The notes under the pieces are model-generated. The model was not told the origin of the DNA. It saw only the letters and a program-made list of their open reading frames with translations, and did no database searches. A DNA stretch of 64,000 bases from Halisarca cf. caerulea (Eukaryota > Porifera > Demospongiae > Chondrillida > Halisarcidae). A program made the position numbers and the translations under genes. Positions 3,843-51,711 of the stretch are shown one piece after another; positions within the stretch are counted from its first letter, which is position 1; every line of letters starts with the position of its first letter. Location of the stretch: contig CAUJGJ010000444.1 in NCBI GenBank assembly GCA_963170055.1, positions 6,109,118-6,173,117 on the forward strand, written 5' to 3'.

Positions 3843-3993
3843 CAGTCGACTCCACTTATAACGAACCCGGTTTTAACGAATTTCGGTTTATAGCGAACCG
3901 ACTTTCCGGAACACATCTGGGCACATGCAAAAGCTTCTGGTTACAACGTACTCACCTCCAGTTATAACGTCCGCACAGCTGAAGTTCATTAAG

Positions 3994-19112: not shown

Positions 19113-21775
19113 GTGTGTGTGTGGGTGTGTGCTTATACGTATGTGTACACAGTGTCATGTTCACAATCTCTTGTCATTTCAATATTTTGTCTTTTCAGAA
19201 TGTGTCTGTTCAGTCTGATGACTGTGATCAATCTTCTGATGGCTCAGAAGAGTTTAATTTTGGGGATGATGAAGCTGTACAGCAAGGTGAGAGCGGAGAA
19301 TTGTCTAACACACCTATCCCTGCCCCAGTTTCACAGTTGTTTATTTTCTGTTTAGTTTGGCAGGCATTTTATAAGATTTCAAATGGGGCTATTGCTGCTT
19401 TGCTAAGATTTTTGAAGTTTTTCTTAACTGCCCTTGGCTTGGCATTTGGCTGTGATACGATTGTTTCTTTGGGTAAAATTATCCCTATGACTAGAAATGG
19501 ATTGAGAACTGCTCTTTCATTACACGATGAACCTTTTGAAACATTTATAGTTTGTCCTAAATGTGATTCAATCTATAGTAAGCAGCACTGCAGGAGGGGA
19601 AGCAAATTTGTTGCCACTACTTGTTCTAATAAGCCATTTCCAAATCACCCAATGACATCAATGCGAAAACCGTGTGGCACCCAGTTAATGAAATCTATTA
19701 AGACACGATCAGGGATAAACGTCAAACCAATAAGATTTATCCATATCAGAACCTTCAGAATGCTCTGAAGTGTCTACTTCAACGACCTGGCATTGTGCAT
19801 AAGTGTGAAGAGTGGCGAAGTCATGTTGCATACAGAGATTATGGCTATTTTTGTGACATCTATGATGGCCAGGTGTGGAGAGACTGCAGTTTTTTTGTAG
19901 ACAATCCATTTTGTTACTTGCTTACTTTGAATGTAGACTGGTTTCAACCCTTTGACCATGGTTGATATTCTGTTGGTGCTATCTACCTAACAGTTCAAAA
20001 TTTGCCTAGGGATATGAGAAATAATCCTGACAATGTCCTTTTGATTGGGATTATTCCTGGCCCATCTGAGCCCTCCTTGACACTCAACAGTTATCTGTCT
20101 CCTCTGATAATGGATTTAAAGGAGGCATTCAACTCAGGATATCAAATTGCTGTTTCCACTGAAATGTGGGAAAGAGCAAACGGTTACAATATGTGCTATG
20201 CTTACATGTATTGCATGTGATATACCTGCAACTCGAAGAATATGTGGATTTGTTGGTATTAGAGCATGCAACCCTTGCTTGCAATAAGTGTTTGAAAAGG
20301 TTTGCTCAGGTTCATAATGATGATTCTTGCTGGACAAACTACTCGGGATTTGACACATCATCATGGCCTCCTCGAACAGACAATGGCCACAGACAGGCTT
20401 GTAGAGAAATTCTTACCCAGTTTACACAGGCAGAAACAAAAACTGCATTGCAACAGGCAGAATCAGAAAAGGGGCTGCACTATTCTGTCTTCTTAGATTT
20501 GCACTATTTTGACCCAATAAGATTTCCTGTAGCATGATGCATGACTTATTCTTAGGTACAGGTAAACATACAATGGAAGTGTGGCTGGAATACAAACATA
20601 ATGGAGTAAAGTTATTAACACAGCAATTAATTAAAAAAATAGATGATATTAACAATTTTATTGTACCGGATGGCATGGGTCGGCTTCCGAGACGATTGAC
20701 TTCACATTTTGGTAGTTTCACAGCTGATCAATGGAAAAATTGGATAATTATTTACTCAGCTATATTATTGTTTGATGTCTTAGTTGACGAGCACTTTCAA
20801 TGTTGGTTGTATTTTGTTGCTGCGTGCAAATGTTTGTGTCGTCGCATTGTTAGGAATGGTGATATTGCAGAAGTCAAAACATTTTTGCATCAATTCTGTA
20901 CAAATTTCTGTGATCTTTATGGAGAAAAGGCATGTACAATGAACATGCACCTTCACCTTCACTTATGTGAGAGCATCCTAGATTTTGGACCAACATATGC
21001 CTTTTGGTTGTATGCTTTTGAACGCTATAATGGTATATTAGGCTCCTACCATACAAACAATTTAAACATCGAGTGTCAGATCATGAGGAAATTCTTGGAA
21101 TCTCAATCAAACATGAATTATGGTATCTCTCAAAATGATGTGTTTACAGAAGACTTTCTATCAGTACTAGGTAAAAATTTCAATATCAACTCTCCAAATG
21201 CAAGTATAAGCCCCGCCAATGTCATAGAGCTGTTGGAGCTACCATGTGGTCCTGTTGCTGTTTCTATTTCCACAGTGAGGTCATTTAACAGCATTATTAA
21301 GCCAGTTGGTTCGTTTAAAGAGAAGGTTTTCCCTGATTTACATTTTAAGCAACTATCAAATGTTGTGGACAAGATTTTTTCTGGAGAATCAGGGTACCGT
21401 GTGATAAAGTCTAAATTCTACTTGAAGTTTGGCAAAATTCTGATTTCTGATGACTTAATTGGTTCTGCAATGCCCAATTGCAATGTTGCATCATCCATGA
21501 TTATTGCATCATGGCCAGCTTTACTCGAGCATACCATGAGTGATGTTGATATTTGTGTTGGTGAAGTACAATATTTTGTACAGATAACTGTTACAGTGGA
21601 TGTTGACTCCACTGTACAAGACAATGAAAGTGAAGATTCAATCTCTATGTACTTTGCATATGTTCATTGGCGGAAATCTCAAATACAGCCTGCTAACTTT
21701 CCCAAGGACATTGCAATCATATGTGAAACCATAGCATGCCCTTCTAGCCATTGGTGCTTTCTCCCACTACATTGA
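18556..21775 (+). pseudogene. Tnp2/CACTA-like transposase gene, decayed
   Basis: It begins with MSDSESDSFDGLPFTCPVKR and a CPHCGDHVS...FYRHKAQFYD zinc finger, followed by an intron with a GT array. The second exon carries a WQAFYKISNGAIAALLRFLK segment and KIYPYQNLQNALK. Then come YSVGAIYLTVQNLPRDMR, LLIGIIPGPSEPSLTLNSYL, MHDLFLGTGKHTMEVWLEY and, near the end, FTADQWKNW, HLHLHLCESILDFGP and FWLYAFERYNGILG. Those are Transposase_21/DUF4218-type motifs of CACTA-Plavaka proteins. Breaks: frameshifts near 18678, 19730, 20180 and 20285, and a TGA at 19963. The last 413 residues from 20534 are open. The fold is DDE-like and the gene dead as read. Confidence 0.75.
18915..19133. repeat. GT/GC imperfect microsatellite
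   Basis: A TG-rich tract with TGCG and TGGG interruptions in the first intron of the Tnp2-like pseudogene. Confidence 0.95.
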
Positions 21776-30708: not shown

Positions 30709-32586
30709 CTACTTCATATTAATAGTGATTGAGCAGTTGGAAAACTGAAAAGCTGGAAAAGGTATGTTTTCCTGTCCAATTGGGAAAATATGCTGAAGTT
30801 TCCCAAGCTGACTTGCTGCACAATGATCTTGCACTTGTACATTAGAATCCTGGAGTGCATCCTGTTTAGTTTGAGTCTGAGGTACTTGGCCTTGTGCGAC
30901 TTGACTCAGCATTTGCAGCTGATCATTGCCAACTCTCTTATACTTCCTCACACCATCAGTGCTACGGTGCCCAGTTTTGGTCATTATGAGCTGTTCATCA
31001 ATGCCATTTTGGAATAATCTTGTAGCAAGTGACACCCTTAGAGAGTGATTGGTTTTGAAACCTTGTATACCTGCAGTCTTGCACATTCGTCCAATTGTCT
31101 TGTCAAGACTGTTGTGTCCAATTGGTACATTACTGAACCAGACGTCATCCTTTGGATCTTTGAGTGGTTGAAGATAAAATGAATTTCCTGGTCTACTTGT
31201 TGAACATCGCTTGTCATACTCTTTGAAAACACGCACAATACACCTGTGTGGATTTTCTACATTCTCATGCTGGACAACTGTTTTCAGTTCAATCTTTCTC
31301 ATTTTGATACCTCCTTGGTTGTTTTTAGACACATCTTCAATGTACTTCAAGTAACTTCTCTGTAGAGGAATCTTGGAATCAGCAGGGATTTCAACCAATG
31401 ACAATTGTGAATTGTGCCAACGAAGCTGTCGATGCTCCTGTCCACCACGCAAACCAAAGCACATTCCTATGAGAAAAAATATGGTATCAACAAGAGCCTG
31501 AGGACTATGTGTACCAAGTACACCACATTTCCACATGATGTTCTCTTCTTCAGCTGTTATTGGCTCTGCCTGTCTTTTGGCATTTCCCAACCCTTTGGCT
31601 TTGCTATCCTTCATTTGAGCATCCAAACTATCCCGGAAATCACGAAATTCTGGCTGTGTGAACAAGTTCCATTCTGGATTGGTTTCCCGAATTGTTCTCT
31701 GTAGACCACAACAAATTTGATACAAAGTGTTTGGCGGATACAACTCACCATCTTTTCTTCTAACCTCAACAACAAAATGGGAGAGCCAGTAATTTAGTTC
31801 TGTCTTCGTCATTTGATTGATTAAAGCAGATAGAAAGCTTGATTCTTCCTCATCCTCCTTTGCAATTCTCTGTCTGTATTCAGCCCAATCGATCCAAACT
31901 GTATTGGCCCAGTTTGTAGTTTTTCGTGTATTTTTAGGAATTGCTCTTACCCGCATTGCCTTAACTTCTTCATCTGAAACAATTGGAGCAAACCTTGTAG
32001 ACAGATTCTTTTTACACGTTGGGGAAATGATCAGGTCTGTTGGTAGCTGGGCGATGTCGTTCGTTGAAGCTAAAAGCGAGATGGAGGAGTTCTCATCAGC
32101 AGACAATTCAATGGAAGGGTTCGTGTCAGTAAATGGCTCGGTAAATGGCTGGATGGAGGCGGTCGAATCAGCAGATGGTTGAATGGAAGGGTTTGTGTCA
32201 GTCAATGGCTGGATGGAGACAGTCTGATCAGCAGATGGTTGGATGGAGGCGTTCGTGTCACAGTCAGTAAATGGCTGGATGGAGGCGGTCGGATCAGTAT
32301 TATCTATGGTTGGATCGGGAGACGGTTGGATGAAGGCTGTGAGATTAGTAGACGATTGGCTGAAGGCATCTGGGTAGATGGAGGCGGTTAGATCAATAAA
32401 CAGCTGGTCGGAAGCATTTGGATCGGCAAACGGCTGGTCAATGAAAACCTGGTTGTTGGAGGTCAGATTAGCTGATGGTTGCGTGGAGGTGTTCGGGTCA
32501 TAACTAGTCGTTTCAGCTAAGGGGTGGACCAAAAACTGATCTGGACTGAAAGCAATCGCAAATTCTGATAAGAAAGGATCAGCCAT
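30709..32586 (-). CDS. Crypton-like tyrosine recombinase, intact
   Basis: A 625-residue single-exon frame; the ATG at 32586 has a good context (GAGATGG). Residues 1-180 are low-complexity repeats of the ASIQPFTD type. Residues 225-300 form a core-binding region (WIDWAEYRQRI to LQRTIRE). The catalytic domain follows, with the tyrosine-recombinase set in order: R380 (CFGLRGG), H514 and R517 (NHSLR), H540 (KTGH) and Y549 (VRKYK). The C-terminal domain resembles DUF3504 of KCTD1/QRICH1/ZMYM proteins, which are Crypton-derived in animals. All catalytic residues are present and there are no breaks. A Crypton would cut and rejoin through a circular intermediate. Element ends are not visible, so a domesticated gene remains possible. 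Confidence 0.85.
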   Translation of the reverse strand: MADPFLSEFAIAFSPDQFLVHPLAETTSYDPNTSTQPSANLTSNNQVFIDQPFADPNASDQLFIDLTASIYPDAFSQSSTNLTAFIQPSPDPTIDNTDPTASIQPFTDCDTNASIQPSADQTVSIQPLTDTNPSIQPSADSTASIQPFTEPFTDTNPSIELSADENSSISLLASTNDIAQLPTDLIISPTCKKNLSTRFAPIVSDEEVKAMRVRAIPKNTRKTTNWANTVWIDWAEYRQRIAKEDEEESSFLSALINQMTKTELNYWLSHFVVEVRRKDGELYPPNTLYQICCGLQRTIRETNPEWNLFTQPEFRDFRDSLDAQMKDSKAKGLGNAKRQAEPITAEEENIMWKCGVLGTHSPQALVDTIFFLIGMCFGLRGGQEHRQLRWHNSQLSLVEIPADSKIPLQRSYLKYIEDVSKNNQGGIKMRKIELKTVVQHENVENPHRCIVRVFKEYDKRCSTSRPGNSFYLQPLKDPKDDVWFSNVPIGHNSLDKTIGRMCKTAGIQGFKTNHSLRVSLATRLFQNGIDEQLIMTKTGHRSTDGVRKYKRVGNDQLQMLSQVAQGQVPQTQTKQDALQDSNVQVQDHCAASQLGKLQHIFPIGQENIPFPAFQFSNCSITINMK

Positions 32587-32635
32587 CTCCCCGCTACGGC
32601 GCAGTAGAACAATAGAAAAGGCGGGAAAATGAACG

Positions 32636-32664
32636 ACATCCTCAGGCTACGCCTTCGGATGTCC
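32636..32664. repeat. GC-rich hairpin
   Basis: Arms GACATCC and GGATGTC enclose AGGCTACGCCT. It lies 50 bp upstream of the recombinase start codon and close to a second, larger hairpin. Confidence 0.7.
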
Positions 32665-33096: not shown

Positions 33097-36000
33097 TTAA
33101 AGTTCGGTTACTGGTATTTGCTCAGACATTATTTTTAAATCACCCACTGCAAAGTCTGCCATCAGATTGAAGTGACATGGCCCTTCTTCACCCTCATACT
33201 GAACCTCAAATGTACCTGTTTTCTCATCATAGCTCTGTATAAGACCATTGTACCATTTGTTTGATTTTGTATGCTTGCAATGGAACCTATGTCGTATTTG
33301 TTTGCCAACCAAATCTGTGGGCTCGTACTTGGCTGCTTGTGGGATGGGATTGCTCTCTATAATCTTCTTAAATGTTTGAATCAGTTCTTCCATGGGGACA
33401 GGTTTTCCTGCTCGAGTGAAGTTTAGCTTTATGTTCTGATGGAATAATTTCTTCCGCAGTTTAACTTGCATTTGAATTAGCTCTTTCATCCGTGACCTTT
33501 TCTTTTGTACACTTGTTTGTTCATCATCAATCATGGATAAAATTTCATCAAGTTCATGTGCTCCAATAATGACCATCACATTTGATAGCGTATCTTTCAG
33601 ATTTGCTAGTTTCTCCGCTGCAATTTTCTTAGATTTTATTTGTTCACTAAATGCTGCTTGTCGTTCTTTCTTCAGTGCTTCTTTTTTTGTTTTATGGAGT
33701 TCCTGGGCTTCTTTTCTGTTATCCATTGCCTTTCCAATTGCCATGGATTGTTCTTCTTTGGACAGTGAATCCAACCAGCCCATGGTTTTGTTTTTTTTTG
33801 CTTCAATTAAGTTTCGTTTTGTCCTTTGACTAGCTGTAGCCATGTTATTATTGTGTAGCCAATCATTTAACCCCAATATTGACTCACATATATCGTTGCT
33901 TGGTTGAATGGATTTTAATATCTTTTGCACATTTTCTGGGGGATCCCAATATTTTCCTTGAGGTAAGAAGTCCCTTGCATAAGTTCGTAGTTTGCTTCGC
34001 ATTTCCAGTGCACCAACTGATACTAGCTCCACCACCAGTCCATCCCATTTATCTTGACTGAAGATTCTACTTCGGACTGCTATTTTGGCTGCATGTCCTG
34101 AGGTGGTGGGGCAGTATAATCTACCCTCACTAGTGAAGACCTGTATTTCACCATCAAGTGCTTTTCTTGAGTCGATCTCAAGCAATTCAAGATATGAGTC
34201 TAGCTCTAGATAATGTATTCTCATATCAAATGCACTCTTATTTAGTATTGTAGATTTTGAGAGTGTCACTAAATTGCTATAGATATGAAGAAACATCAAA
34301 CTATCAGCTTTAACGGCAGCCATGATGCGATCATCATTTAATTTGATGTAAAGGTCTCTTTCCAGTTTGTTTTTTTTGAATAGTTCAAGGTACTGCAGTG
34401 CTGCTTTCCTCAAGACAAGTAACTTTGCTGCATTAGAAGCAGTCACAAAGTACCTACTGCCCACTTGTCGATCCAAGGTAATTAGTTGGCATGTTCTGTA
34501 GTATTCACATTCATCGCTGCTTGATGCCATTCCTACTTCCAGAAAATCAGGAAATGACACAGATCCAACACCATATTCTGGCACTCCTTTGCTTCCGAAC
34601 ACCTTACAAAACTCATGGACAATGGTGTCAATTTCAGAGTATTGGCGATTTACTGCAGATCCACCTGTGCATTCAGACTGAGTCTCCCTTAGTAGTGGTG
34701 AAATTCCCTGTATAAATGCCTTCCGAAGATTTACTCCTAGATGCATAGAGCAGAAGTTAGTAACCAAATCTTCACTGCTGAAGTCAGTCATGCTAAATCT
34801 TGCAATATCCTCCTTCCTTTTCTGTTGTACTATTGCATTGAACTTTTTTTGTGTCGCAGCACTGTCTGATGTTGATGATGTAACCAAGCCCCAATTTATG
34901 GAGTCTGCATTCGGAAGACCAAGATCATGTGCCAACTTTCTTAAACGCTCCAGTTCACTTGAAATATCTTTTGCTATTTGCTCTGCAGAGCCATTTGGCA
35001 ATTCGTTTACTGACAAAACTATACCATTAATGGTTGCAGCACCAAGTTTCTTTTGTCCTAATGTGGTGTCATCTGAATTTAAGTGAAATGCTTTGCTGTT
35101 TGATAGCTCTGTCACCTTATGTATGTCGTTTATTGTGCATAATTCATTTTGGCGCATGTATTTGGAACAAGATTTTTGTGGCAATTGGACCTCATCTATG
35201 TCTATGTGTGGTAAAAAGTGTTGAAGCATAAGCTTGATGCTACTTGATATTTTGTCAGGTGGCATTCCGTGAGCAAGTAGATTGTAGTATAATTTGCAAA
35301 TCTCTTTTGTGCATTGTCCTCCCTCTTTAGTTTCATAAGCAATCTCATGATCTGCAGGTGCCTCTTCTGTTTTTGGAGGAATACCATCCATGGACCAATT
35401 TGAAACCTTTGTTTCTTTACTTCCACTGTGACAAAATTCCTGCATTTCCTCTAATTCTGCCTCAGTTGCTGCTATGTCTTGCTGGAGCCTGCCTATTATC
35501 AGTTCATGGGCTTTTTGCAACTTTTTTTCATAACATTTTGTCATTTCTTTCATTCTGTTTGCTATATTACTCAATGGTTGCCTTTGACTTGTGTCTTGGA
35601 TTGAGCAAATACTGGGTGATTCAACAATATCATGATTTTCTTCATCTGAGTAAAATTGTGCCAGCTTATCATGATCAATGACCCCTAGTGCATTTGCTTT
35701 GCTGTCACTCACTGTTGGATAAACATCTTCATTATCAGCATGTTTTGCAACCTTTCTTGCAATGTAGGTATATGCATTGTGAGGTAGATATCCTTTTTGT
35801 CTCAAAAATGGATCAATGGCTATGTAAAACCTCCCAATTTCTGTTTTAGTGGCACCTCTAGTATAATCCCATTTTGCAAGAAACTCATGAAGCTGCTTGT
35901 AAAATTTAATTGTAGGTGGTTTTGTGAGAGCTAACACTGGCAGACCTTTTCGGGTATTTGAGAAAGCCTTTTGTAGTTCTTCTTTGCTGTACCCTTCAAT

Positions 36001-36753
36001 TTCAATTTCTTCTGGAAACTTCTCTCCTGCATGCATGGGTCAAATAAATTGTCAAATTGAATCTTTAAGTTTAACTTAGTTGACTGTTTATTATAGGTTA
36101 AGGTTGCACAATACTATACACTGCCAGATAATTACCTGAAATATGTATGTATGAACGGATTCGTATTTTCATTTCCATGCAAGTCATGCTCTGTAAGTTG
36201 AACACATATACATACTTTTATCCAGTGTCCGTACACGGGGAATCCACAATGTATCCATATATTGATCACCACATGAACTTGCACCTTTACTGATAGGTGC
36301 AGCTATTCGCTCTGCTGTGTGCAGTAATCGGCATGGTCTTGATGGAATGTAAGCATTTGGATAGTTCTGCTTATACATACTGTGAAGAATGTCTCCAACA
36401 TAACTCCCAGACCTGCTTGCTTGCTTTTGTGCTGCTTGCAGCATGTCAATCATATTCTTATATGTAGGGATACCTATATATGTAAGCGTGTGTGAATTGC
36501 ATGTTGAACATTAAATTATCACGTAATGTTTAGTTGTATGCTTGTACACCTGACCTGAGTCCTTTGCTACTGCCTGTGTTTTCACTTGACTCCTTAGGAT
36601 GGGTCCAGGATTCATTTCTATCCCCCCAATTAGCAGCAAGCAAACTAAGCACATGATGGCAATGGAGTGGTGTATTAGCTTGTTTTGGCAGTGGTTACAA
36701 CCACTAAGAAATAGAGTGAAAATTGACTGAATGTATCCAACTGCCCCAAACAA
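33097..36753 (-). CDS. three-exon gene: 2A-like leader, coiled coil, Tudor-like tail
   Basis: Exon 1 (36753 to about 36553) has a hydrophobic stretch and then LLIGGIEMNPGP (motif at 36601-36624), a 2A ribosome-skipping signature with G in place of the first D. Exon 2 (36456-36216) and exon 3 (36026-33097) follow with GT/AG borders, and the phases match if the first donor is CAG|GTGTAC. Exon 3 alone encodes about 976 residues: KEELQKAF near the start, NFCSMHLGVNLRKAFIQGI, GSRYFVTASNAAKLL, ADSLMFLHIYSNLVTLSKS and SNDICESILGLNDWL. A charged helical region comes next (about 790-900). The C-terminal barrel, about 50-60 residues (LVGKQIRHRF to YDEKTGTFEVQYEGEE), is Tudor/chromo-barrel-like. The family is large and uncharacterised in invertebrates, possibly transposon-borne. 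It is intact. The role is unknown. Confidence 0.65.
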
Positions 36754-39862: not shown

Positions 39863-41381
39863 AAGGATGGGCTGCATCCCAGAGGCTAGCCAAGCAGTTT
39901 GTGGATATTCATGTGGTTGCGGACTCAGTGCTGGCCAAGGTGGTTTCTTTACCTCCAGAGGCCCAGCGGGTATCATCTCCTCTTCAAGCTAAGGTATGGG
40001 AGGCTGCTCTGGCAGGCCACCCTAGTCGTCAGTGGGTGAAGTTGATTCTCGACGGCATTACTTTGGGTGTACGTCTCGGTTTTGATGGGCGCCCTGTTCG
40101 TTCTGCAGGTCACAATGTGCCATCTGCATCAGAGAATGTGGCAGTAGTGCGTGATTACTTGAAGAAGGAGCAAACTCGAGGGTCCATTTCTGGCCCTTGG
40201 TCCCCAGGTGAATGCGGTGAGGGGTGGTCATCAACCATTTTGGCGTTATACCAAAGTCTGGCAAGCCTGGTAGATGGCGCCTCATAGTGGACCTTTCTTT
40301 CCCAGATGGTAGTAGTGTCAATGGGGGCATCGACAAATCTCTCACAGCCATGAGATATGCATCAGTCTTGGATGCTGCTAAAATGCTGTTACATCTTGGC
40401 CCCGGGACATTGATGGACAAGATTGATATTGCTAGTGTCTACCGAATTATCCCTGTTCGTCCTAAATATCGTTATCTGTTGGGAATGTCCTTTGATAAGA
40501 AGGTGTGCATTGACACCCAGCTTCCTTTTGGCTTATCTTCTGCTCCAGTTTTATTTAATGCTTATGCGGATGGCTGGGAGTGGATAGTACGTAGCAAGGG
40601 TGTAAAGTTCATCCTTCATTGTTTGGATGATTTTCTTGTCTTGGGCAGTTCTGAGTCCAAGGAGTGTCAGTCTGCATTGGATTCATATGAAGGATTGCTG
40701 CCAAATGTTGGGTGTTCCTTTGGCAATGGAGAAGATAGCTGGGCCCGTTACAGTTTTGCAATTTTTGGGATTTGAGTTGGATTCAGAGGTGATGGAGATC
40801 CACTTACCGAAAGAGAAGTTGGACCAACTGGTTCTTTTATTGGGGTCATGGGTCTCTAAGAAGTCTTGCGTCAGAAAGGAGCTGGAGCATCTTTTAGGAA
40901 AGTTGAATCATGCTTGCATTGTGCTTCCCCAAGGCAGAGTTTTTCTTTGAAGGATGTATGATTTACTGAGTGTTGCCCGCAAGGGTCATTTTCATATTCG
41001 GCTAAATCAGGGTTTTCGATCGGATTTAGCTTGGTGGCAAAGCTTCATGTCCCATTGGAATGGCCACTCGTTAATGGCTTTGGTTGGCGCTGCAGTACCA
41101 TCAGTGGTATTTTCATCAGATGCTTCCGGAGGCTGGGGCTGTGGTGCTCTTTGGGATAATCATTGGATACAGGGTGCATGGCCCATTGGTTGGGAGGATA
41201 CTTCGATCATGGTCAAAGAGTTATGCCCGGTGGTTCGCGCGTGTGCTATTTGGGGTCATGTGTGGCGAGGACAGGTGGTGCTCGGAAAATGTGACAACTT
41301 GTCTGTAGTTTGTGCCGTAAATAGCGGTACAGCGAGGGAGAAGAAGAAGAAGAGCGTCAGCAGAGCTTCCACAAGGCTATA
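39863..41381 (+). pseudogene. DIRS/Ngaro-like reverse transcriptase and RNase H
   Basis: The polymerase region reads from SQGWAASQRLAK through HFGVIPKSGKPGRWRLIVDL, DKIDIASVYRIIPV, LPFGLSSAPVLFNAYAD and the catalytic LDDFLVLG (LDD) box. Then come LGVPLA.EK, VTVLQFLGFELDS and LGKLNHACIVLPQGRVFL. The RNase H part has SSDASGGWG, MVKELCPVVRA and KCDNLSVV, its three acidic residues. Frameshifts near 40240 and 40700 and a TGA at 40948, at a position that is arginine in the family (FL.RMYDL), show it is dead. The frame leaves the family after VNSGTAR near 41340. Confidence 0.85.
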
Positions 41382-42925: not shown

Positions 42926-43309
42926 TTAACCTTTTAACATCCGCGTGACCGTGTTTACACTACTGCGTTATGTACTGATAGCCTATTTTAGGCGCGAATT
43001 TCTGCTGACAGAAACAAGCTTTCTCTAACGGATCAAAACGAGTCTAGTCTCTGTAATCTGTTCTTCGAGCTTTATAACGAATGTATCACCCAGGTAAGTC
43101 AATTAAATCAAGGTGATTTCGTGCGACGCTTTTGTTTTCACTCTGTTCGATCTGTTCTTGCTGTATTGCACACATTCACAACATAGATACTCTATGTTGA
43201 CAAGAAGCTAAAACAAGTTCACTGCCCAAATCTGCTTTTTTCGCTTTACAGATCACTCATTATCCTTTATTTGAATCCATAACATTGTTTTATTGTTCTT
43301 TTCTCGCAC

Positions 43310-43773
43310 AATGGCACGAAAGGTACCGGTAGAGGACGTTTGCAGCAATTCTCAAATGACAGCGATTGGTACGAATCAGAAGACGATCTGATCGACGCTG
43401 AACAAGAGGGAGAGCTAGAATCATTCGTCCACCGAACGGATGATCCAATTGATAGGGCTCAACAGGATATTAGTCCTGAAGAGGAGCCAGAAGGTGAGAC
43501 AGTACCCACCAGCTATGATGAAGAACCTCAGGCTGATACAATTAGTTGTATACAGACAAGTACCTCTGGAGATAGACCTTCTGCACAACCTGGTGCTGTG
43601 TTCTCAGGACCAAGTAGCACACCTCCACCAAACACACCTTTTTTGCCACCACACAACACCAGTTTTGGTGGACAGCCTTATATGTACATTCCGGTCCCAA
43701 TAACAAACCTTGATGAAGAAAGTCACCCCTATGACTTCATCGTGCAAATTTGGGGTGACAGTACCTTCAAGTA
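43310..43773 (+). pseudogene. piggyBac 2 transposase, N-terminal piece
   Basis: The acidic N-terminus (DSDWYESEDDLIDAEQEGE), a proline-rich stretch, and HPYDFIVQIWGDSTFKY align with the start of piggyBac 1 (DYFLQIFGEDSF). The nearest ATG (43311) is one frame off, so the true start is lost or spliced. The frame is cut at the TA at 43772. Confidence 0.8.
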
Positions 43774-43834
43774 CAGTGCTGATTAAAATTATGTTACCAT
43801 GGTAAGCTAGAACAGCTCTAGAGTACACGAGGCT

Positions 43835-43861
43835 ACTCGCGAGTACTCGCGAGTACTCGCG
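43835..43861. repeat. left subterminal palindromic iterons
   Basis: 2.7 head-to-tail copies of the perfect palindrome ACTCGCGAGT, 61 bp inside the left end. They are mirrored by 46905-46931. The 10-bp period is about one helical turn. Confidence 0.9.
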
Positions 43862-43986
43862 TAGATTAACACTTATTCACACAATGTACGTGTAAAATGG
43901 CGATATGCGGTCGACGAAAAACTATATCGTTTGAAGTGTAAAATCGTCATTTTCGTTGAACGAAAGTTACTGAGAATTGCTTAGCA

Positions 43987-45009
43987 ATGAGTTATCATCT
44001 TACAAGTTATCAGAGACAGCGAATCGTATCTTTGTACGAAGAGGGAAAGACTATTTCGGACATTATCCGGATTTTCGAGTTGGAAGGAAGAAGAACGTCT
44101 CGCGCCACTGTCAGAAAGTGGGTTTTTCGGTGGAAAACATCTCGTAGATTAGTACACAAACATTGTTCCGGGCGTCGGCAGAAAATTACACCTGAAATGG
44201 CTGAATTTATGGAAAGGAAGATGGAAGAAGATGATGAAATAACCTCTGCAGAGCTCCACAGGCTGATAGCAAGGAATTTTTCCACTGAAATTAGTCCACC
44301 CACAATACGAAGGTTCATTAGAAAGAACTTGGAGTGGGAAGTTGTACGAACCCGGTTTGGCCCAATGATTTCTGATACTAACAAAGTCAAAAGACATGCC
44401 TTTGCCGAGATGTGCATTGAGAAGCGGGACACTTTCGATGATGTCATTTGGTCTGACGAGAGTTCAGTTCAACTAATGCGCCACAGCCAAACAATGAGGG
44501 TAAAGGTTGGAAAGGAACGTGTTCTCAAACCACAAGCAAAACATGCACTTAAGGTACATGTATGGGCAGCTATATCCAAGAATGGGGCCACACACATCTG
44601 CGTATTTGACCAGATCATGGACGGACCACTCTATGTCAAAATATTGGAGAACTTTCTTTTGCCCTTCCTCAGTACAGCATTCCCTGATGGGAATTATCGA
44701 TTCATGCAGGACAACGATCCGAAGCACACGAGTCGTGTTGCGAAGGAGTTTTACGAGAGCAAGGACATTAAGTGGTGGCGAACACCTGCCAGTAGCGCAG
44801 ATCTCAACCCCATTGAACATGTGGGGAGGGAGCTAAAATATTTTATAGCAAGACTGGTTAAACCACTAAATAAAAAAGAGCTAGTAGAAGGAATTACTTT
44901 GTTTTGGAGCCAGAGGATGACACCCGAGAAATGCCGAGCGTATATTGACCATACATTCAAGGTTCTACCTAAAATTGTGGCCAAAGAAGGAGGCATCACA
45001 GGAGAGTGA
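43987..45009 (+). CDS. Tc1/mariner DD34E transposase, intact
   Basis: A 340-residue single-exon frame. Residues 1-50 are a first helix-turn-helix (YQRQRIVSLYEEGKTISDII). A GRR linker and a second winged HTH follow at residues 60-115. The catalytic DDE_3 core has D157 (VIWSDESSVQL), D242 (RFMQDNDPKHTS) and E277 (SADLNPIEH), with 34 residues between the last two, which is the Tc1-type DD34E spacing. The usual tryptophan after NPIEHV is glycine here (HVGREL), while element 2 keeps W. The C-terminus ends GGITGE in both copies. There are no stops or frameshifts, so it is possibly functional. Confidence 0.92.
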   Translation: MSYHLTSYQRQRIVSLYEEGKTISDIIRIFELEGRRTSRATVRKWVFRWKTSRRLVHKHCSGRRQKITPEMAEFMERKMEEDDEITSAELHRLIARNFSTEISPPTIRRFIRKNLEWEVVRTRFGPMISDTNKVKRHAFAEMCIEKRDTFDDVIWSDESSVQLMRHSQTMRVKVGKERVLKPQAKHALKVHVWAAISKNGATHICVFDQIMDGPLYVKILENFLLPFLSTAFPDGNYRFMQDNDPKHTSRVAKEFYESKDIKWWRTPASSADLNPIEHVGRELKYFIARLVKPLNKKELVEGITLFWSQRMTPEKCRAYIDHTFKVLPKIVAKEGGITGE

Positions 45010-45121
45010 TTAAGGCTTATAATATTATATTATTTTTGGTATCAGAAATTTTCTATAACATATTCTTATTACTATGTATTAATTAAAAATATATTATTAA
45101 TATGTAATAAGGTTGTAACGG

Positions 45122-46393
45122 TTAAGTAACATTGAATGTTGCTCTATTGAGCTGGCGGCAGCTACTATCTATTGCTAGTCTGTAAGGCCGCCATACATCC
45201 TCCTCTTTTTGTCCTGGATGGACTGGATAAATAGCATATATTGCCTCCTTAATTGCTGCCAGTCTCCGTGGGGATAACGGTCTTTTATTGCATTTCCCAG
45301 CACAGTTGGACCTAGCCCTCTCTTTCCTTGAGTAGGACCTCTTGGCTAGCTGCACGGCCAGATTAACCTGTGAGTTGGCTGTTTTGTATGCTTCAGAAAT
45401 AACCTCTTCCTTGAACAATAATGGTGAAACAGAGTCTGCATAGTTCTGAAAAACCTTGTCCAAGTCAAACTGCTCATTGGCATCATCACACTGTGTGACA
45501 TCAGCATGCTGGGTGGAAGAGCTCCCTTGGTGTGATGGGTTTAGGGTGGAGGACAAGTATTGTGGAGTGTGTGGAATGGATGGAGGGCATGAATACACGG
45601 ATGGTCTGGGTGGGTACGTAGTACAAGGTGGGGGGACACATGGAGAATATGGCAAGTATTGAGGCTGAACAGGTGGGTAAGGGGTGGGAGCAGGTGGACA
45701 TACATATGAGGGGTAAAGGGTGGGAGCAGGTAGGTGTATATGTGTTGGTGAAGGGTAATGTGTGGGAACAGGTGTGTGTGCATACAAAGGGTAAGGGGTG
45801 GGAGCAGGTGGGTGTACATGTGAAGGGTAATGGGTAGGAGCAGGTGGGTGTACATGTGAAGGGTAACAGGTAGGAGCAGGTAGGTGTGCACCTGAAGGGC
45901 AATGGGTAGGACCAGGTGGGTGTACATGTGAAGGGTAATGGGTGGGAGCAGGTGGGTGTGCACCTGAAGGGCAATGAGTGGGAGTAGGTGGTTGTACATG
46001 TGAAGGGTAATGGGTGGGAGCAGGTGGGTGTGCACCCGAAGGGCAATGAGTGGGAGTTGGTGGTTGTACATGTGAAGGGTAATGGGTGGGAGTAGATGGG
46101 TGTACATGTGAAGGATAAAGGATGGGAGCAGGTGGGTGTATACATGATGTGTAAGGGGTAGAAGCGGGTGGGTGTGATGAAAATTGTGTCTGGCGACATG
46201 GCGAAAGGGAACTATGTAATGAGAGAGGAGAGGGTGGGCTGTTAGATGCATGCAATGGTAAATGAGAGGGAGTATGAGGAGATGAGAAAAGAAGAGGAGA
46301 AATTGGACTACTAGGTGGTGGAGTAGAAGATGGAGATAGGTGGTCAGTAACATGTTGATTATTCAGGGTGTTGGTGATCTCAGTCAATGCCAT
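45122..46393 (-). CDS. proline-rich BEN-domain protein of element 1
   Basis: A 423-residue frame from the ATG at 46393. The first 300 residues are proline/serine/histidine-rich, with an 11-12 residue repeat (HYPSHVHPPAPT) encoded by a DNA minisatellite. The last 95 residues form a BEN domain: NLAVQLAKRSYSRKERARSN, a basic KRPLSPRRLAAIKEAIYAIY segment, and WRPYRLAIDSSCRQLNR. BEN domains bind DNA and mediate protein contacts in chromatin factors and some viruses. The start overlaps the upstream frame (46384-46818) by 10 bases in a different frame. The two may be joined by splicing or a lost base, or be separate. Convergent with the transposase, 112 bp between stops. Confidence 0.8.
   Translation of the reverse strand: MALTEITNTLNNQHVTDHLSPSSTPPPSSPISPLLFSSPHTPSHLPLHASNSPPSPLSLHSSLSPCRQTQFSSHPPASTPYTSCIHPPAPILYPSHVHPSTPTHYPSHVQPPTPTHCPSGAHPPAPTHYPSHVQPPTPTHCPSGAHPPAPTHYPSHVHPPGPTHCPSGAHLPAPTCYPSHVHPPAPTHYPSHVHPPAPTPYPLYAHTPVPTHYPSPTHIHLPAPTLYPSYVCPPAPTPYPPVQPQYLPYSPCVPPPCTTYPPRPSVYSCPPSIPHTPQYLSSTLNPSHQGSSSTQHADVTQCDDANEQFDLDKVFQNYADSVSPLLFKEEVISEAYKTANSQVNLAVQLAKRSYSRKERARSNCAGKCNKRPLSPRRLAAIKEAIYAIYPVHPGQKEEDVWRPYRLAIDSSCRQLNRATFNVT
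45660..46160. repeat. 36-bp coding minisatellite
   Basis: Imperfect units such as GGTGGGTGTACATGTGAAGG followed by GTAATGGGTGGGAGCA encode the proline/histidine repeat of the BEN protein. Confidence 0.85.
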
Positions 46394-46818
46394 TCTATAG
46401 ATTGAACATCTTCTGCTCTTACTTCAGCTTCTTCTGGCATTTTTCCAAAAGACTTCGCAGGTGAACCAGACCCCAACCACAGCGGTTTGCTCGCTGCTAT
46501 CTTTACTCCAGTACGCCTCGAATTATGTATTTTTGCACAGCAAATTGAAGCCTTGGTCTTTAAGGCTGTTGGATTCTTCTTCTTGCTGTTTTGTATAACA
46601 CCCGCGTTTCGGGGGATATTCTTCTTTGGAGGTTGCCAGTCCAACATGTCCACGACGGTCGCCCGATAGCGACGAGAACCTAGTTTAACCACAATTTCGT
46701 CCTCTTGTTTGGTCTGGGCGAGGTCTCCCAAAATGTGCTTCACATTTACTCGGTGAATCATCCCCTCATCTTTGGATTCCAACCATTTCACTTCGATTTC
46801 GTTCCTTCTTCGAGCCAT
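46384..46818 (-). CDS. SH3/Tudor-like small frame of element 1
   Basis: A 144-residue frame from the ATG at 46818. Residues 1-62 form a beta-rich module (IEVKWLESKDEG, RVNVKHILGD, IVVKLGSRRYRATVVDMLDW), the pattern of Tudor/SH3-like barrels seen at the start of some BEN-domain proteins. A basic tail follows. Homologous modules are at 47313-47582 in element 2 and 56600-56791. I infer that it is the N-terminal part of the BEN protein, or its partner. Confidence 0.65.
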   Translation of the reverse strand: MARRRNEIEVKWLESKDEGMIHRVNVKHILGDLAQTKQEDEIVVKLGSRRYRATVVDMLDWQPPKKNIPRNAGVIQNSKKKNPTALKTKASICCAKIHNSRRTGVKIAASKPLWLGSGSPAKSFGKMPEEAEVRAEDVQSIEWH

Positions 46819-46904
46819 TCGAATCTTTTTCTTATCTCAGACAACGCTTCACACGACAAGCGACACATTCGATGCTTTCCGAATAGGTGTTAATAGTTTA
46901 CAAT

Positions 46905-46931
46905 ACTCGCGAGTACTCGCGAGTACTCGCG
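46905..46931. repeat. right subterminal palindromic iterons
   Basis: Identical iterons to 43835-43861, 64 bp from the right end. Confidence 0.9.
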
Positions 46932-46997
46932 GACGTCCTCGAAACAAGCGCGTGCGATGCTCGTTTTAATGGTAACATAATTTTAATCAGCACTGTA

Positions 46998-47077
46998 CTT
47001 GGCAGAGCAGACGAACATCTATGCTGCACAGAAGGGCACTGCATCATGGACTGATGTCTCAGAGGAGGAGATGAAGC
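46998..47077 (+). pseudogene. piggyBac 2 transposase, middle piece
   Basis: It encodes LAEQTNIYAAQKGTASWTDV then SEEEMKL, which bridges FKY (43773) and the FVGIQLATGIVHLP-type text at 50446. It is only 82 bp long including the TA duplications and is trapped between the two Tc1 insertions. Confidence 0.8.
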
Positions 47078-47122
47078 TACAGTGGTGATCATAATTAATA
47101 ATACCACGAAATGCGTGTGACA

Positions 47123-47154
47123 CTTGTGTACACAAGTGTACACAAGTGTACACG
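47123..47154. repeat. left subterminal palindromic iterons of element 2
   Basis: Three 10-bp repeats of TGTACACAAG, including the perfect palindrome CTTGTGTACACAAG, about 43 bp inside the left end. Confidence 0.85.
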
Positions 47155-47312
47155 CGCGTGTAAATTCCATACACGCACTAATTGGCAGCACGTTAACGCC
47201 GTCGACGTGATAATACTCTGCTAATTTTCAGTCGAAATACTGCCAAATCTTTTTGGACTTTATAAAGCGTCGGGTCTCAAGCCATCTTATTTTGTCCGAA
47301 AAAGGAGGAGCG

Positions 47313-47582
47313 ATGTCTAAAAACGAGATTTTTGTTAACTGGATTGACACCGGTGAAGGAGACTCGCGCGTGAATGTTAAACATATCGTAAACAAAGAAA
47401 ATATTGAAGTTGGAGCTATCGTTAAGGCCAAATTCAACGGGAAGTTGTACAGAGCAGCCGTCCTTGACCTACTCCACTGGAAAAAGAAGAAAACGACGAA
47501 AGGGCTTTCCACCCGAAATGCCAGCCGAAACTTTCCGCAACGAGGACGAGATTCTATCAGTTTGGGTCCAAAACGTGGTTGA
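47313..47582 (+). pseudogene. SH3/Tudor-like frame of element 2
   Basis: It begins MSKNEIFVNWIDTGEGDSRV, then NVKHIVN and KAKFNGKLYRAAVLDLLHW, matching the element 1 module at the same relative position. After the tryptophan the frame is doubtful. An in-frame TGA at 47580 separates it from the BEN frame starting at 47604, which is in the same frame, so one fused protein is plausible ancestrally. Confidence 0.6.
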
Positions 47583-47603
47583 AGAAAGACAAACGTTCCC
47601 CTT

Positions 47604-48810
47604 ATGACCAGCTGTTCACCAGCACAACCAACAACAGTCCAAGTACTGGAATCCAATACTCAAGAAGACGTTCCAGCAGCAGATTGTGAGTTGGTCATTT
47701 TCCCTGATGACGTATCGACCGAACATCAGTACACTACTTCCGGATCGTGGGCTGAAGAACAATTGCCAGACCATGTGCCTGAAGGAGACACCAACAACCG
47801 CAATAACTCTGATCTTGTACCTTCATTGATTACTGTAGACCCCATTTCTCCTGTGCATGCGCTTTATTCACCCTCACAGATTGTATCCCCATCATCTCCT
47901 GTTTGTACTCCTCCTTGTTCCCAACCAGATCTCATCACAAGCACTCCAATTAATAGTAGCATGCATTGTGCACCCCATACACGTAGATCATTGTATATGC
48001 ACTCAGCTCCACAATCTGCAACACACAATGCCTTTCATTATCTTCCACATAATCTCTCTCATCCTCCACAGCTAAACACCTTCACTAATCACTCAGTGTA
48101 TACTCAACTTCCACCATACCCTAGTACCATTTGCTCAGCACACTATCCCAGTTGCCATTTGCCACACCCATGTCATATGGGTTTCCATACATCACTTCCA
48201 TCACACCATCATAGGTTGTCTTCACCGCATCCATCAAATTTTCATAGTTGCTGTTCACCATACACGTCACATTCAGTCCATAACACCCTCCACACACCTG
48301 TCCCACCCCCACCGTGCAACTGTCATACACCGTGCGCTTACCCATCACAACAATTGCAGTACTGTCACTCATCTCTTCCTTCACCAATTGTCACTCGTAC
48401 TAACACTGGGTCCATTGATGGTGAAACACATCAGCGTATATCATTTGAAGATGCTGGACCAGGTCAAGATGGTCAGGAAATGAAGGTAGTCAGGGAGATG
48501 TTTGATGACTACAATGAAGGATATCAAGGAGAATGTCCTCACAGAATGCTTCAAAAAAGCAACATCAAAGCACAATTTGGCCGTGCACATTGCAAAGCGG
48601 TGCTTCACAAAGGCAGAGCGAATGACTTCGAACAGCTCTGGTCAGCTGAACAAGAAGAAGTTGTCTCCTCGCAGAATGGCTGCTATCAAGAAAGCAGTAT
48701 ATAAAGTATATCCAGTGAGGCCTGCTGAAAGTGAGGATGAAGCATGGAAAGAATTCAGGAGAGCTATAGACTGCAGTTCTAGGCAATTAGTTAGGTATAG
48801 AAGAAACTGA
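47604..48810 (+). pseudogene. proline-rich BEN-domain protein of element 2
   Basis: An N-terminal acidic part (DCELVIFPDDVSTEHQ) is followed by a long proline/serine/histidine/tyrosine-rich region without the regular repeat of element 1. A frameshift near 48527 precedes the BEN domain. In the shifted frame it reads HNLAVHIAKRCFTKAERMTS, KKLSPRRMAAIKKAVYKVYP and WKEFRRAIDCSSRQLVRY to the stop at 48810. The match with element 1 is strongest in the BEN domain. Convergent with the element's transposase. Confidence 0.75.
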
Positions 48811-49281
48811 ACTATCCTTAGGCTATTCTATTGCAAGGCTTATATTGAGTATCATGTAATCAGTTCAACAATGGCATGAATCATATTTTCAACAACTGCA
48901 TAGTAGTCATAGGTGATTTGTCTTGTAGCAGTTTAAGATTTACTGTTATTGGCAAACAGCTGTCTTATCTTGACTCACTATGATCTGGTGGATCCAAATA
49001 CATAATATTATTTATTATTTCAACAACAGCTGGACTATAAACATTGTCTTAATATAATTGGTGAACAGCTTGGGAATGAATTAATCTGTTCAATGACATT
49101 AGGATTTACAAGGAATAAGAAAAATCTTATGCTGTATTACGATGAAAATGAAACATTACATTCTAGTGAAAATAATGCCTTGTACATAAAAAAACAAAGT
49201 AATATGAAATTCAATATTAAAAACAGTTATACACTGCATAAAACTTATATATCATGCACACAACATAGTCAAATTGAATTA
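48811..49281. other. convergent 3' spacer of element 2
   Basis: AT-rich sequence between the BEN and transposase stop codons, with no gene seen. Confidence 0.5.
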
Positions 49282-50309
49282 TTACTGACCAGTAATACCT
49301 CCTTCTTTAGCCACTATAACTGGGAGAACTTTGGGTGTATGTGATATGTAAGTAATACATTTGTCCACGGTCATACGTGTTCTCCAAAACCTCTTGATCC
49401 CTTCCACCAGCTCGCTCTTTGTTGTTGGCTTCACCCACCGTGCAAGGAAATATTTCAATTCGTGCCAAACTCTCTCAATAGGATTGATGTCAGCACTGGA
49501 AGCCGGTGTTACCCACCAATTGATCCCTGCGTCTTTGTAGTATTCCTTGGCCTTCCTACTCGTATGCTTTGGATCGCTATCCTGCATGAAGCGGTACTGT
49601 CCATCTGGGAAGTGTTCCTTGAGAAAGGGCTCCAGGTTACTTTTGAGAATCTCAATGTAGAGATTTGCATCCATGATGGAGTCGAATATGCAGATCTTTG
49701 TCACTCCACGCTTTGAAATAACTGCCCAAACATTGACTTTCAAAGCATGCTTTGGTGTGGGCTTGTCTATTTGTACATGCATGTAATGAACATGTCTTCG
49801 CAGTTGAACACAACTCTCATCCGTCCAGATAACGTCATCAAAGTTGTCTCCACACTCAATGCAACATTGAGCAAACTCCACTCTTTTGCTTTGTTCACAT
49901 CTCTAATCATAGGTCCTAAACGAGTGTGTACAACTTTTCATTTCAATTCTCTTCGTAGAAAGCCTCTTATGGTCGATGCAGCGATGGTAACACCAAAATT
50001 TTTTGATACAAGATAGGACAGTTCGCGAGAAGAAAGTTCATCATCCTTCTCTAAACTTTCGTTGAGGAATGCAGCAATGTCTTCTACAATGCGAGGCCGC
50101 CTTCCAGCACATCCGGCGTCTTCCAGACCTTGTTTCATTTCCCAGCGATATATCCACCTTCTGATTGTAGCCTTGGTTGTTGTAAGGCCTTCTTCCTTCA
50201 AAATGTCAACAATCTCGGCCAGCGACTTACCTTCCGTGTTTAAAAACACGATTCTACGACGAAAATAAGCTGATAAGCGAGCAGGCATTTTCCTTCGAAC
50301 TTGATACAC
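49282..50309 (-). pseudogene. Tc1/mariner transposase of element 2, broken
   Basis: The N-terminal half runs 50309-49938: HTH with YFRRRIVFLNTEGKSLAEIV and a GRR linker. A TGA follows at a position that is tryptophan in element 1 (LEWEVV against LK.KVV). A frameshift in the next 50 bases restores the frame at EFAQCCIECGDNFDDVIWTD. The catalytic set is kept: D in VIWTDES, D in RFMQDSDPKHTS, E in SADINPIERVW, again 34 residues apart. It ends GGITGQ at 49282. Confidence 0.88.
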
Positions 50310-50355
50310 TCTAAACTAACACGTGCGGTTTAACCTTAGAACGTGACAATTGTTG

Positions 50356-50419
50356 CGTGTACACTCGTGTACATCCGTGCATACACTCGTGTACGCAGGT
50401 GTTAAACGCGTGTACAAAG
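50356..50419. repeat. right subterminal iterons of element 2
   Basis: Four or five CGTGTAC-type words on the two strands (GTGTACACTCGTGTAC and CGTGTACGC among them), less regular than the left side. Confidence 0.65.
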
Positions 50420-50445
50420 GTCTATTAATTATGATCACCACAGTA

Positions 50446-51711
50446 TTTGTGGGAATACAGCTGGCAACTGGAATTGTGCACCTTCCTTCAATGCAAGACT
50501 ATTGGAGCACAAACCCGCTGGTAGGGATTCCAGGTATAGTGGGAGGGATGACAAGGGATAGATTCCGTGCCATCTTGAGTTGTCTGCATGTCAATGACAA
50601 CAGTGCAGCACCAGCAAGAGGCACACCAGGGTACAACAGGTTGTACAAAGTACGGCCTCTTTTAGAAGCCATCATCAAAACTACACAGGCATCATACATC
50701 CTGCACCAGGACGTCTCTGTGGACGAGGCAATGGTACTCTTCAAGGGCAGGAGCACCTTGAAGCAGTATATGCCCATGAAGCCCACAAAGCGAGGATTCA
50801 AGTGCTGGTGCCTCTGTGATGCACGCAATGGACTGATGTACAATGTCGATGTGTACCAGGGGGCTGGGGAAGGCTCAGGCACAGATGGTTTAGGTGCAGC
50901 AGTTGTGAAGCGTATGCTGGAACCTGTCTATGACAGGAACCACTATGTATACGTGGATAACTTTTTTTCAAGCATTGCATTGGCCAAAGCCCTTCGTGAC
51001 CGGAAAAGGTACACCACAGGCACGATACGCACTAACCGTAGTGGGTGGCCCTCCTCCCTGAAGGACATCAAAGGCATGGCAAAAGCTATGCAAAGGGGCG
51101 AAAGCAAATCCATCATGGTTGATGGTGTGGAATGCCTTGTTTGGAAGGATAACAAGGTTGTTCCTTTGGTGAACAACATAAGTGATCCTAACAAACAATC
51201 CATGGTTCCATGCCGCAACAAAGATGGGACAAGGTCACAAATTTCTTGCCCTGAAAGTGTTAAGTAGTATAATGCCTTTATGGGAGGGGTGGACATGTTT
51301 GATTCACGAAGGAAAACTTATTCCTGCTCCAGAAAATCCAAAAAGTGGTGGATGCGCCTTTTCTATTTCCTTCTGGACGGCACGGTTACCAACGCGTACA
51401 TCTTGTACAAAGAAATATGCAGAACAAAACCATTAACGATGAAGAATTTCCTTCTGAAGCTTGCAGAACATCTCTTAGGATCCGCTAGCACCCGGAAATG
51501 TAATGCCATCCAAGAAGCTCCACCAGCAAGATGACTCCACGAACGACATTTCGTGGATCGTCTTGACCGTCAACAGCAATGCCGAGTCTGCAAGGAAAGA
51601 CGACGAACAACATATTGTTGCAAGGACTGTTGTTCTCAGGAGCCCATTCCTCTTTGCCCAACGGTATGCTTCCGAATTTATCACACAGAAGAGAACTATC
51701 GACAAACGTAA
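50446..51711 (+). pseudogene. piggyBac 2 transposase, C-terminal piece
   Basis: It contains the DDE_Tnp_1_7 core: DVSVDEAMVLFKGRS (first Asp), HYVYVDNFFSS (second) and FMGGVDMFDSRRKTYSCSR (third). The cysteine-rich tail has CRVCKERRR, YCCKDCC and LCPTVCFRIYHT up to TAA at 51709. Two in-frame stops break it: TAG at 51265, where piggyBac 1 has leucine (VKLYN), and TGA at 51532. Catalytic residues are kept, so inactivation was through stops and the two Tc1 insertions. Confidence 0.88.

Follow-up and report, generated by a model that had tools for sequence, protein, structure and literature searches.

Tc1/mariner transposons usually carry a single gene within about 1.3–2.4 kb, and they serve both as the model of simple one-protein transposition and as the source of Sleeping Beauty-type tools. 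In the plant En/Spm (CACTA) elements, TNPA, an additional element-encoded protein, is bound to subterminal repeats near both ends. In PIF/Harbinger elements, the second protein is Myb-like and the targets are 3 bp long. Here we describe two insertions, E1 and E2, within a 64,000-nucleotide stretch of the sponge Halisarca cf. caerulea (GCA_963170055.1, contig CAUJGJ010000444.1, positions 6,109,118 to 6,173,117, forward strand; hereafter "the window"), in which a Tc1/mariner transposase gene is accompanied by an accessory gene encoding a BEN domain. These elements resemble one-gene Tc1/mariner elements such as Sleeping Beauty in their DDE_3 transposase of the DD34E type with a helix-turn-helix N-terminus, their CAGT-type tips and their TA duplication, but differ in the possession of a second gene with a BEN domain, a length of 2.8–4.6 kb and CpG-rich subterminal stretches. 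From En/Spm they differ in transposase class and in DNA-binding domain.

Extra genes as such are already known in Tc1/mariner elements. The TBE elements of Oxytricha belong to this superfamily, and purifying selection acts on several of their genes (PMC4724952); their three open reading frames (ORFs) encode a transposase, a 22 kD unknown protein and a 57 kD protein with a zinc finger and a kinase, and the accessible part of that paper mentions no BEN protein. In contrast, two genes were found in the elements described here, and no Pfam match to a zinc finger or kinase was obtained in the accessory proteins scanned, which sets them apart from TBE. Some mariner elements, several of them in algal viruses, carry Fanzor1, nuclease or methyltransferase genes; they share the Tc1/mariner type, the TA duplication and the presence of extra genes with ours, and BEN is absent from the main text of the report (PMC3627910). 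Movement of PIF/Harbinger elements (Ping/Pong) requires the transposase and a second element-encoded protein, as stated in the accessible part of PMC2836001, but these elements belong to another superfamily, and the DDE_3 transposase and TA target found here do not agree with an assignment to Harbinger. By sequence and predicted fold, BANP and BEND3 share the BEN domain with the accessory protein; unlike the latter, they are host chromatin proteins outside transposons, and both prefer CpG-bearing DNA according to a published abstract. An earlier note on this DNA, made from its letters alone, knew of no described mariner group of this kind. In agreement with this, a BEN or Tudor-BEN partner of Tc1/mariner was found nowhere among the matches listed in a search confined to open-access PubMed Central, which covers neither subscription papers nor preprints nor Repbase. 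What appears to be new, therefore, is the BEN (Tudor-BEN) partner together with the CGCG-rich ends.

Results

Two insertions in one piggyBac-like gene

The boundaries of E1 and E2 (Table 1) could be fixed independently of their repeats, since fusion of the three pieces of flanking sequence, with a single TA retained per site, yielded one open piggyBac-like frame spanning both insertion points. In this reconstructed gene, 82 bp separate the two points. The 3' part of this interrupted gene matched PF13843 (E = 3.4e-62). Over the 30 bases inside each TA, the two tips agreed at 27 positions in E1 and at 22 in E2. The earlier note had proposed two complete insertions with their own inverted ends and TA duplications and with the same gene order relative to the transposase, each having a DD34E transposase. 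The exact ends and the restored frame bear out the first point, and the convergent order was confirmed in both elements. The third holds for E1, whose transposase is open and has the triad; that of E2 is split over two frames.

The features that define a Tc1/mariner element were all found: TA duplication (from the empty sites of E1 and E2), terminal inverted repeats (TIRs) and, in E1, a catalytic triad of D157-D242-E277 in which 34 residues separate D242 and E277. The N-terminus of the E1 transposase matched helix-turn-helix models and the catalytic part DDE_3 (PF13358); the closest solved structure by sequence profile was that of Sleeping Beauty (5cr4, E = 4.5e-39). Within the NPIExVW motif, E1 has a G where all other rows (16/16) of the transposase alignment A2 have W, and comparison with its sister locus L009 showed G and H replacing W and R. 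Judged from sequence, these substitutions may leave the open E1 copy inactive.

Table 1. Coordinates of the features of the window
Feature	Position	Strand	Basis or remark
Element E1, group A, convergent two-gene Tc1/mariner	43774..46995	+	3222 bp; TIRs, flanking TA, in-frame flank join
TA target-site duplication left of E1	43772..43773
TA target-site duplication right of E1	46996..46997
E1 left TIR, 27 bp exact	43774..43800	+	inverted-pair search
E1 right TIR, 27 bp exact	46969..46995	-	inverted-pair search
E1 left subterminal repeats TACTCGCGAG, putative BEN sites	43834..43861		10-bp spacing
E1 right subterminal repeats TACTCGCGAG, putative BEN sites	46904..46931		10-bp spacing
E1 transposase, 340 aa, DD34E, open frame	43987..45009	+	PF13358 E 2.2e-15; triad spacing
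E1 accessory, upstream frame, Tudor/SH3-like N-terminus	46384..46836	-	ATG at 46818 reading down; ORF; alignment A6; fold searches of relatives L029, L028
E1 accessory, downstream frame, proline-rich stretch and BEN domain	45122..46423	-	ORF; one frame with Tudor-like part in L009
E1 BEN domain	45152..45364	-	PF10523 1.8e-6, 28.5 bits
Element E2, group A, separate family, orientation opposite to E1	47080..50443	-	3364 bp; TIRs, flanking TA, in-frame flank join
TA target-site duplication left of E2	47078..47079
TA target-site duplication right of E2	50444..50445
E2 subterminal repeats GTGTACAC, accessory-side end	47126..47153		three at 10-bp spacing
E2 subterminal repeat, other end	50357-50364		one exact copy
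E2 transposase, helix-turn-helix part, first frame	49938..50315	-	PF13565 1.9e-9
E2 transposase, catalytic part, second frame	49282..49902	-	PF13358 7.2e-13
E2 accessory, first frame, Tudor/SH3-like N-terminus	47214..47582	+	ATG 47313; ORF; intact 541-aa sister ORF in L028
E2 accessory, middle frame	47583..48704	+	ORF
E2 accessory, last frame with BEN domain	48490..48810	+	PF10523 2.7e-6, 27.9 bits
piggyBac-like host gene of E1 and E2	43283-43771, 46998-47077, 50446-51264		open across both empty sites
Second piggyBac-type transposase, open, 573 aa	5494-7212	-	PF13843 1.8e-93
645-aa ORF	30712-32646	-	DUF3504, QRICH1, Phage_integrase matches
980-aa ORF near the 645-aa ORF	33100-36039		without Pfam match

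Linkage of the two genes across the genome

The 194 Mb assembly (G000) was searched with the transposases of E1 (119 matches) and L038 (129 matches), merged into 111 transposase loci, and with the BEN queries E1 (44), L034 (53), L038 (48) and PF10523 (21), merged into 100 BEN loci; the merged sets take in weak matches up to E = 0.001, and the locus counts are lower bounds because scoring was limited to the best candidates. Groups A, B and C were assigned from similarity to the queries, independently of gene order. The transposase and the BEN gene are linked across this genome: 79 of the 100 BEN loci lie no more than 3 kb from a related transposase, against a chance expectation of about 0.4% for each. 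The BEN gene was convergent to the transposase at all group A loci (27/27, median gap 272 bp) and at 31 of the 41 group C loci, the other 10 being unpaired, two of them slightly beyond 3 kb. Group B differed, with 17 of 29 loci divergent (head-to-head), 2 on the same strand and 10 unpaired. BEN loci found by Pfam alone were convergent in two cases out of three. Since the order is convergent in A and C and divergent in B, the pair has outlived at least one rearrangement.

Viewed from the transposase, 51 of 61 near-full loci had an accessory within 3 kb. The earlier note had stated that its proposal would be refuted if most related transposases sat in 1.3–2 kb elements with no BEN gene, which is not the case in this genome. 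Among the 10 without a query match, L041 had accessory fragments between its TIRs, another had a group B gene 2.3 kb away, L040 had no accessory in the 5.5 kb around it, one was obscured by N and six were unread. Two BEN loci of G000, C412:6754823-6755029 (open frame of 403 aa) and C195:428875-429141 (478 aa), have no related transposase within 3 kb; these are possibly host genes or orphan copies.

Among the 36 loci read (the two of the window and 34 others, L009–L042), both ends with a TA on each side were located in 21. The end search required TAC.GT tips, so the TA is partly by construction in 19 of these 21 (E1 and E2 excepted); inverted repeats found free of this condition mostly start with TA too. 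All but one of the 21 elements (20/21) are 2.8–4.6 kb long with transposase and BEN sequences inside, these being fragments in L041, which argues for a variant inside the Tc1/mariner superfamily and not the standard type. The exception, L011, is a 1.7-kb deletion derivative that lost the BEN part and kept both ends. L020, L021, L023 and L024 are 99.4–100% identical across about 4.24 kb, L020 being equal to L024, and their similarity ends at the element ends; such copies at several sites point to recent movement with both genes aboard. The richness of the window in mobile elements might suggest that the two genes meet by chance or through clustering of repeats. The probability of this is negligible, given that order, strand and spacing are fixed inside TA-flanked inverted ends (27/27 in group A) and that fresh copies of the whole two-gene unit exist.

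The accessory protein: a Tudor/SH3-like part and a BEN domain

The accessory is a single ORF in sister copies of both elements, namely L009 for E1 (582 aa) and L028 for E2 (541 aa). Separate SH3 and BEN genes were accordingly rejected. The SH3/Tudor-like module and the proline-rich protein ending in a BEN domain that the earlier note had described (in E1 and E2 the BEN domain exceeds the PF10523 cut-off of 23.2 bits) form one gene, not two. In some group A families the Tudor-like and BEN parts occupy separate exon-like frames. Much of the proline-rich stretch of E1 is encoded by a 36-bp tandem repeat (12 registers) at 45641-46248 of the minus strand. The two-domain design is common to groups A, B and C at 18–30% identity to the first row of alignment A1, besides one near-copy at 96%; the linker between the domains is proline-rich in group A, and in group B it is predicted to form a long helix.

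The assignment of the BEN fold agrees in sequence and in predicted structure. Ten accessory proteins were scanned with PF10523, with five above the cut-off, two below and three without a match. For group C, the identification of the C-terminal domain as BEN relies on comparison with the A/B profile (probability 96, E = 1.8e-9) together with PF10523 matches in 5 of 12 members (E values of 1 or less, the best being 6.7e-5). Structural models of two relatives, L029 and L028, predicted a Tudor-like N-terminal fold with a middling match: Tudor entries top the Foldseek list, none with E under 0.001, and a sequence search of PDB with the Tudor-like profile A6 gave no clear match (best E = 0.11). This predicted fold in both models raises the idea that insertion is directed by the accessory, with a histone mark read by its Tudor-like part and the element ends held by its BEN part, and the position of E1 and E2 within one piggyBac-like gene, 82 bp apart, is in line with it. 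We consider it unlikely, as TA is the sole target feature shown and the Tudor match is no better than middling.

Evolution and selection

Related transposases also exist in other database contigs (1179 at E up to 1e-10). In a tree of 20 loci of this genome and 27 of the 120 database relatives listed from that set, group A stood on one side and B plus C on the other, with outside proteins interspersed in all three groups. Some of these equal copies from this genome; others differ, and the latter indicate that the lineage of the transposase extends beyond this assembly. When the alignment A2 was used against viral_contigs and genome_contigs, a relative was encoded in 0/17 and 0/33 stretches. A protein database search with the accessory alignment A1 gave at least three proteins, found among the 7992 candidates scored, a capped set in which proline-rich words probably took up most places; by eye, two are near-copies of the L029 and L009 accessories, and the third, of 189 aa, resembles the L011 remnant. 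The L028 BEN part found none among 52 candidates in a search that missed the known relative P0122 as well and is thus uninformative.

Both genes are under purifying selection between families, and their divergence is correlated. The proportion of differing silent sites (pS) between families was mostly saturated at 0.70–0.90, that of nonsynonymous sites (pN) being 0.14–0.47, and most such pairs gave no finite ratio of nonsynonymous to synonymous change (dN/dS) because silent changes were saturated. Where a ratio could be formed, it was 0.10 for the transposase (L013-L018), 0.17 for BEN (E1-L012) and 0.23 (L012-L013) and 0.27 (L029-L033) for the Tudor-like part. BEN identity between families was 23–49%. 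Transposase and BEN distances correlated with r of 0.92 over 15 loci and 0.62 over the 9 group A loci, 0 of 20000 permutations being as high, and nearest neighbours in the two sets of distances agreed for 9 of 15 loci. The earlier note proposed that the element retains its BEN gene as a functional component. In this genome the proposal is supported by the largely fixed orientation within groups, the mostly synonymous changes between families and the r of 0.92; BEN frames with dN/dS near 1, which the note had counted as adverse, were not what the comparisons between families gave.

Near-identical copies gave dN/dS values of 0.14–0.81 for the transposase, 0.07–0.73 for BEN and, from very few changes, 0.27–1.13 for the Tudor-like part, for which the L028-E2 pair is excluded. 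The BEN pairs E1-L009 and L014-L026 had zero silent changes, and the BEN value of E2-L028 was 1.55, the E2 frame being broken. These values, the broken accessory frames of both window copies and the retention of both ends by L011 after loss of the BEN part would fit a captured passenger gene that has no role for the element. A passenger is nevertheless very improbable: the gene is found in three deep groups and two arrangements, it is kept at the above identities between families with mostly saturated silent changes, its divergence correlates with that of the transposase, and the transposase itself has values of 0.14–0.81 among near-identical copies.

CpG-rich ends and their repeats

For 12 elements, the ends, taken as bases 23–162 from each tip, were compared with the interior and the flanks. 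The ends are rich in CpG and CGCG, as evidenced by CGCG counts of 49 for the ends (3360 bp), 24 for the interior (35989 bp) and 20 for the flanks (21547 bp), or 14.6/kb in ends vs 0.67/kb in interior, and by 87.5, 25.7 and 19.1 CpG per kb, respectively. The flank figure is inflated, as the 1-kb flanks of E1 and E2 contain each other's ends. The ends of L041 had no CGCG. When somewhat longer end sequences from 13 elements were shuffled with dinucleotides preserved, about 43 CGCG were expected vs 64 observed, so that CpG density explains most of the excess. In group B, where the genes start centrally, each of the 12 ends of 6 loci from three families had 64–136 CpG/kb vs 20–63 in the centre; in four group A loci the 3' centre had 0–10.5 CpG/kb. 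CpG richness hence belongs to the ends and not merely to promoters, and a promoter as the only cause was rejected on the composition of group B.

The same comparison bears on whether the element has retained the BEN protein as a regulator of its own that binds the CpG-rich ends for transcription control, for anti-silencing or as a boundary, outside the transposition complex. We regard this as clearly less probable than the end-binding partner discussed below. Both genes of group A and group C elements begin beside the ends, so that end sites could be promoter sites, and BEN proteins act in chromatin and transcription according to published abstracts. In group B, however, the genes start centrally and yet the ends are the CpG-richest part in 6/6 loci; a boundary role at both ends would be compatible with this.

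Short family-specific repeats near both ends were partly established. Besides the repeats of E1 and E2, a TTACACGC-type repeat was found in L026 and a GTTAAC-type repeat in L041, and 8-bp palindromes were in excess at 7 of 26 ends. The sum of repeats shared between left and right ends was 78 over the 12 elements, a value reached by 0 or 1 of 20000 reshuffled pairings in two runs, by 9/20000 when E1 was left out and by 116/20000 without E1 and L026; with matches equidistant from the tips removed, 353/20000 pairings reached the sum. BANP binds CGCG within TCTCGCGAGA via helix alpha5, as given in the accessible part of PMC10206803, and the CTCGCGAG core of the BANP site is present in the E1 end repeat.

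A more doubtful proposal, offered tentatively, is a two-component lineage that senses methylation: a BEN oligomer would bind unmethylated CGCG-rich ends only, the element would be mobile only at times and places at which these ends lack methylation, and from one family to the next the end repeats would change together with the BEN domain. It is favoured by the behaviour of full-length BANP, oligomers of which are required to choose unmethylated CGCG (PMC11472053, accessible part), and disfavoured by that of the BANP BEN domain, which by itself was found to be methylation-insensitive (PMC10206803, accessible part).

Other mobile elements of the window

The matches of the 645-aa ORF (Table 1) are those expected of a Crypton-like tyrosine-recombinase element. 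On the plus strand, 3-2069, 3877-4629, 20513-21772 and 40221-40772 carry further pieces of mobile elements: hAT with DUF4371, a Tc5/CENP-B-type DNA-binding part, DUF4218 (below cut-off) and a reverse transcriptase.

Discussion

On balance, we favour the view that E1 and E2 represent two families within an old and diverse two-component Tc1/mariner lineage (DD34E, TA-target) in which the BEN protein binds the element ends. The CGCG-rich ends, a sequence-based argument, lend support to end recognition by putative binding of this protein, one of the roles suggested in the earlier note. Two observations weigh against this view: (i) the accessory genes of E1 and E2 are frame-broken in both window copies, and (ii) end repeats are clear in some families only, others sharing single 8-mers and L018 and L025 none. 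Under the proposed mechanism, the BEN protein would bind the ends as an oligomer, as the helical linker and the 10-bp spacing of the repeats in E1 and E2 suggest, and would mark or pair the ends for cutting by the transposase at the tips; the Tudor-like part may tether the complex to chromatin. By analogy, the BEN protein could play the part that the additional protein has in PIF/Harbinger, here combined with a Tc1/mariner transposase.

Retention of a DNA-binding partner of the chromatin type by a diverse branch would imply that the one-protein design is not the sole stable one in Tc1/mariner. The dozens of naturally occurring combinations of a BEN domain with its element end would open BEN recognition, and a possible link of DNA methylation to transposition, to direct tests. 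Some of the BEN genes lacking a nearby transposase may be host genes derived from such elements, and the lineage is a possible mobile source of BEN domains in animals.

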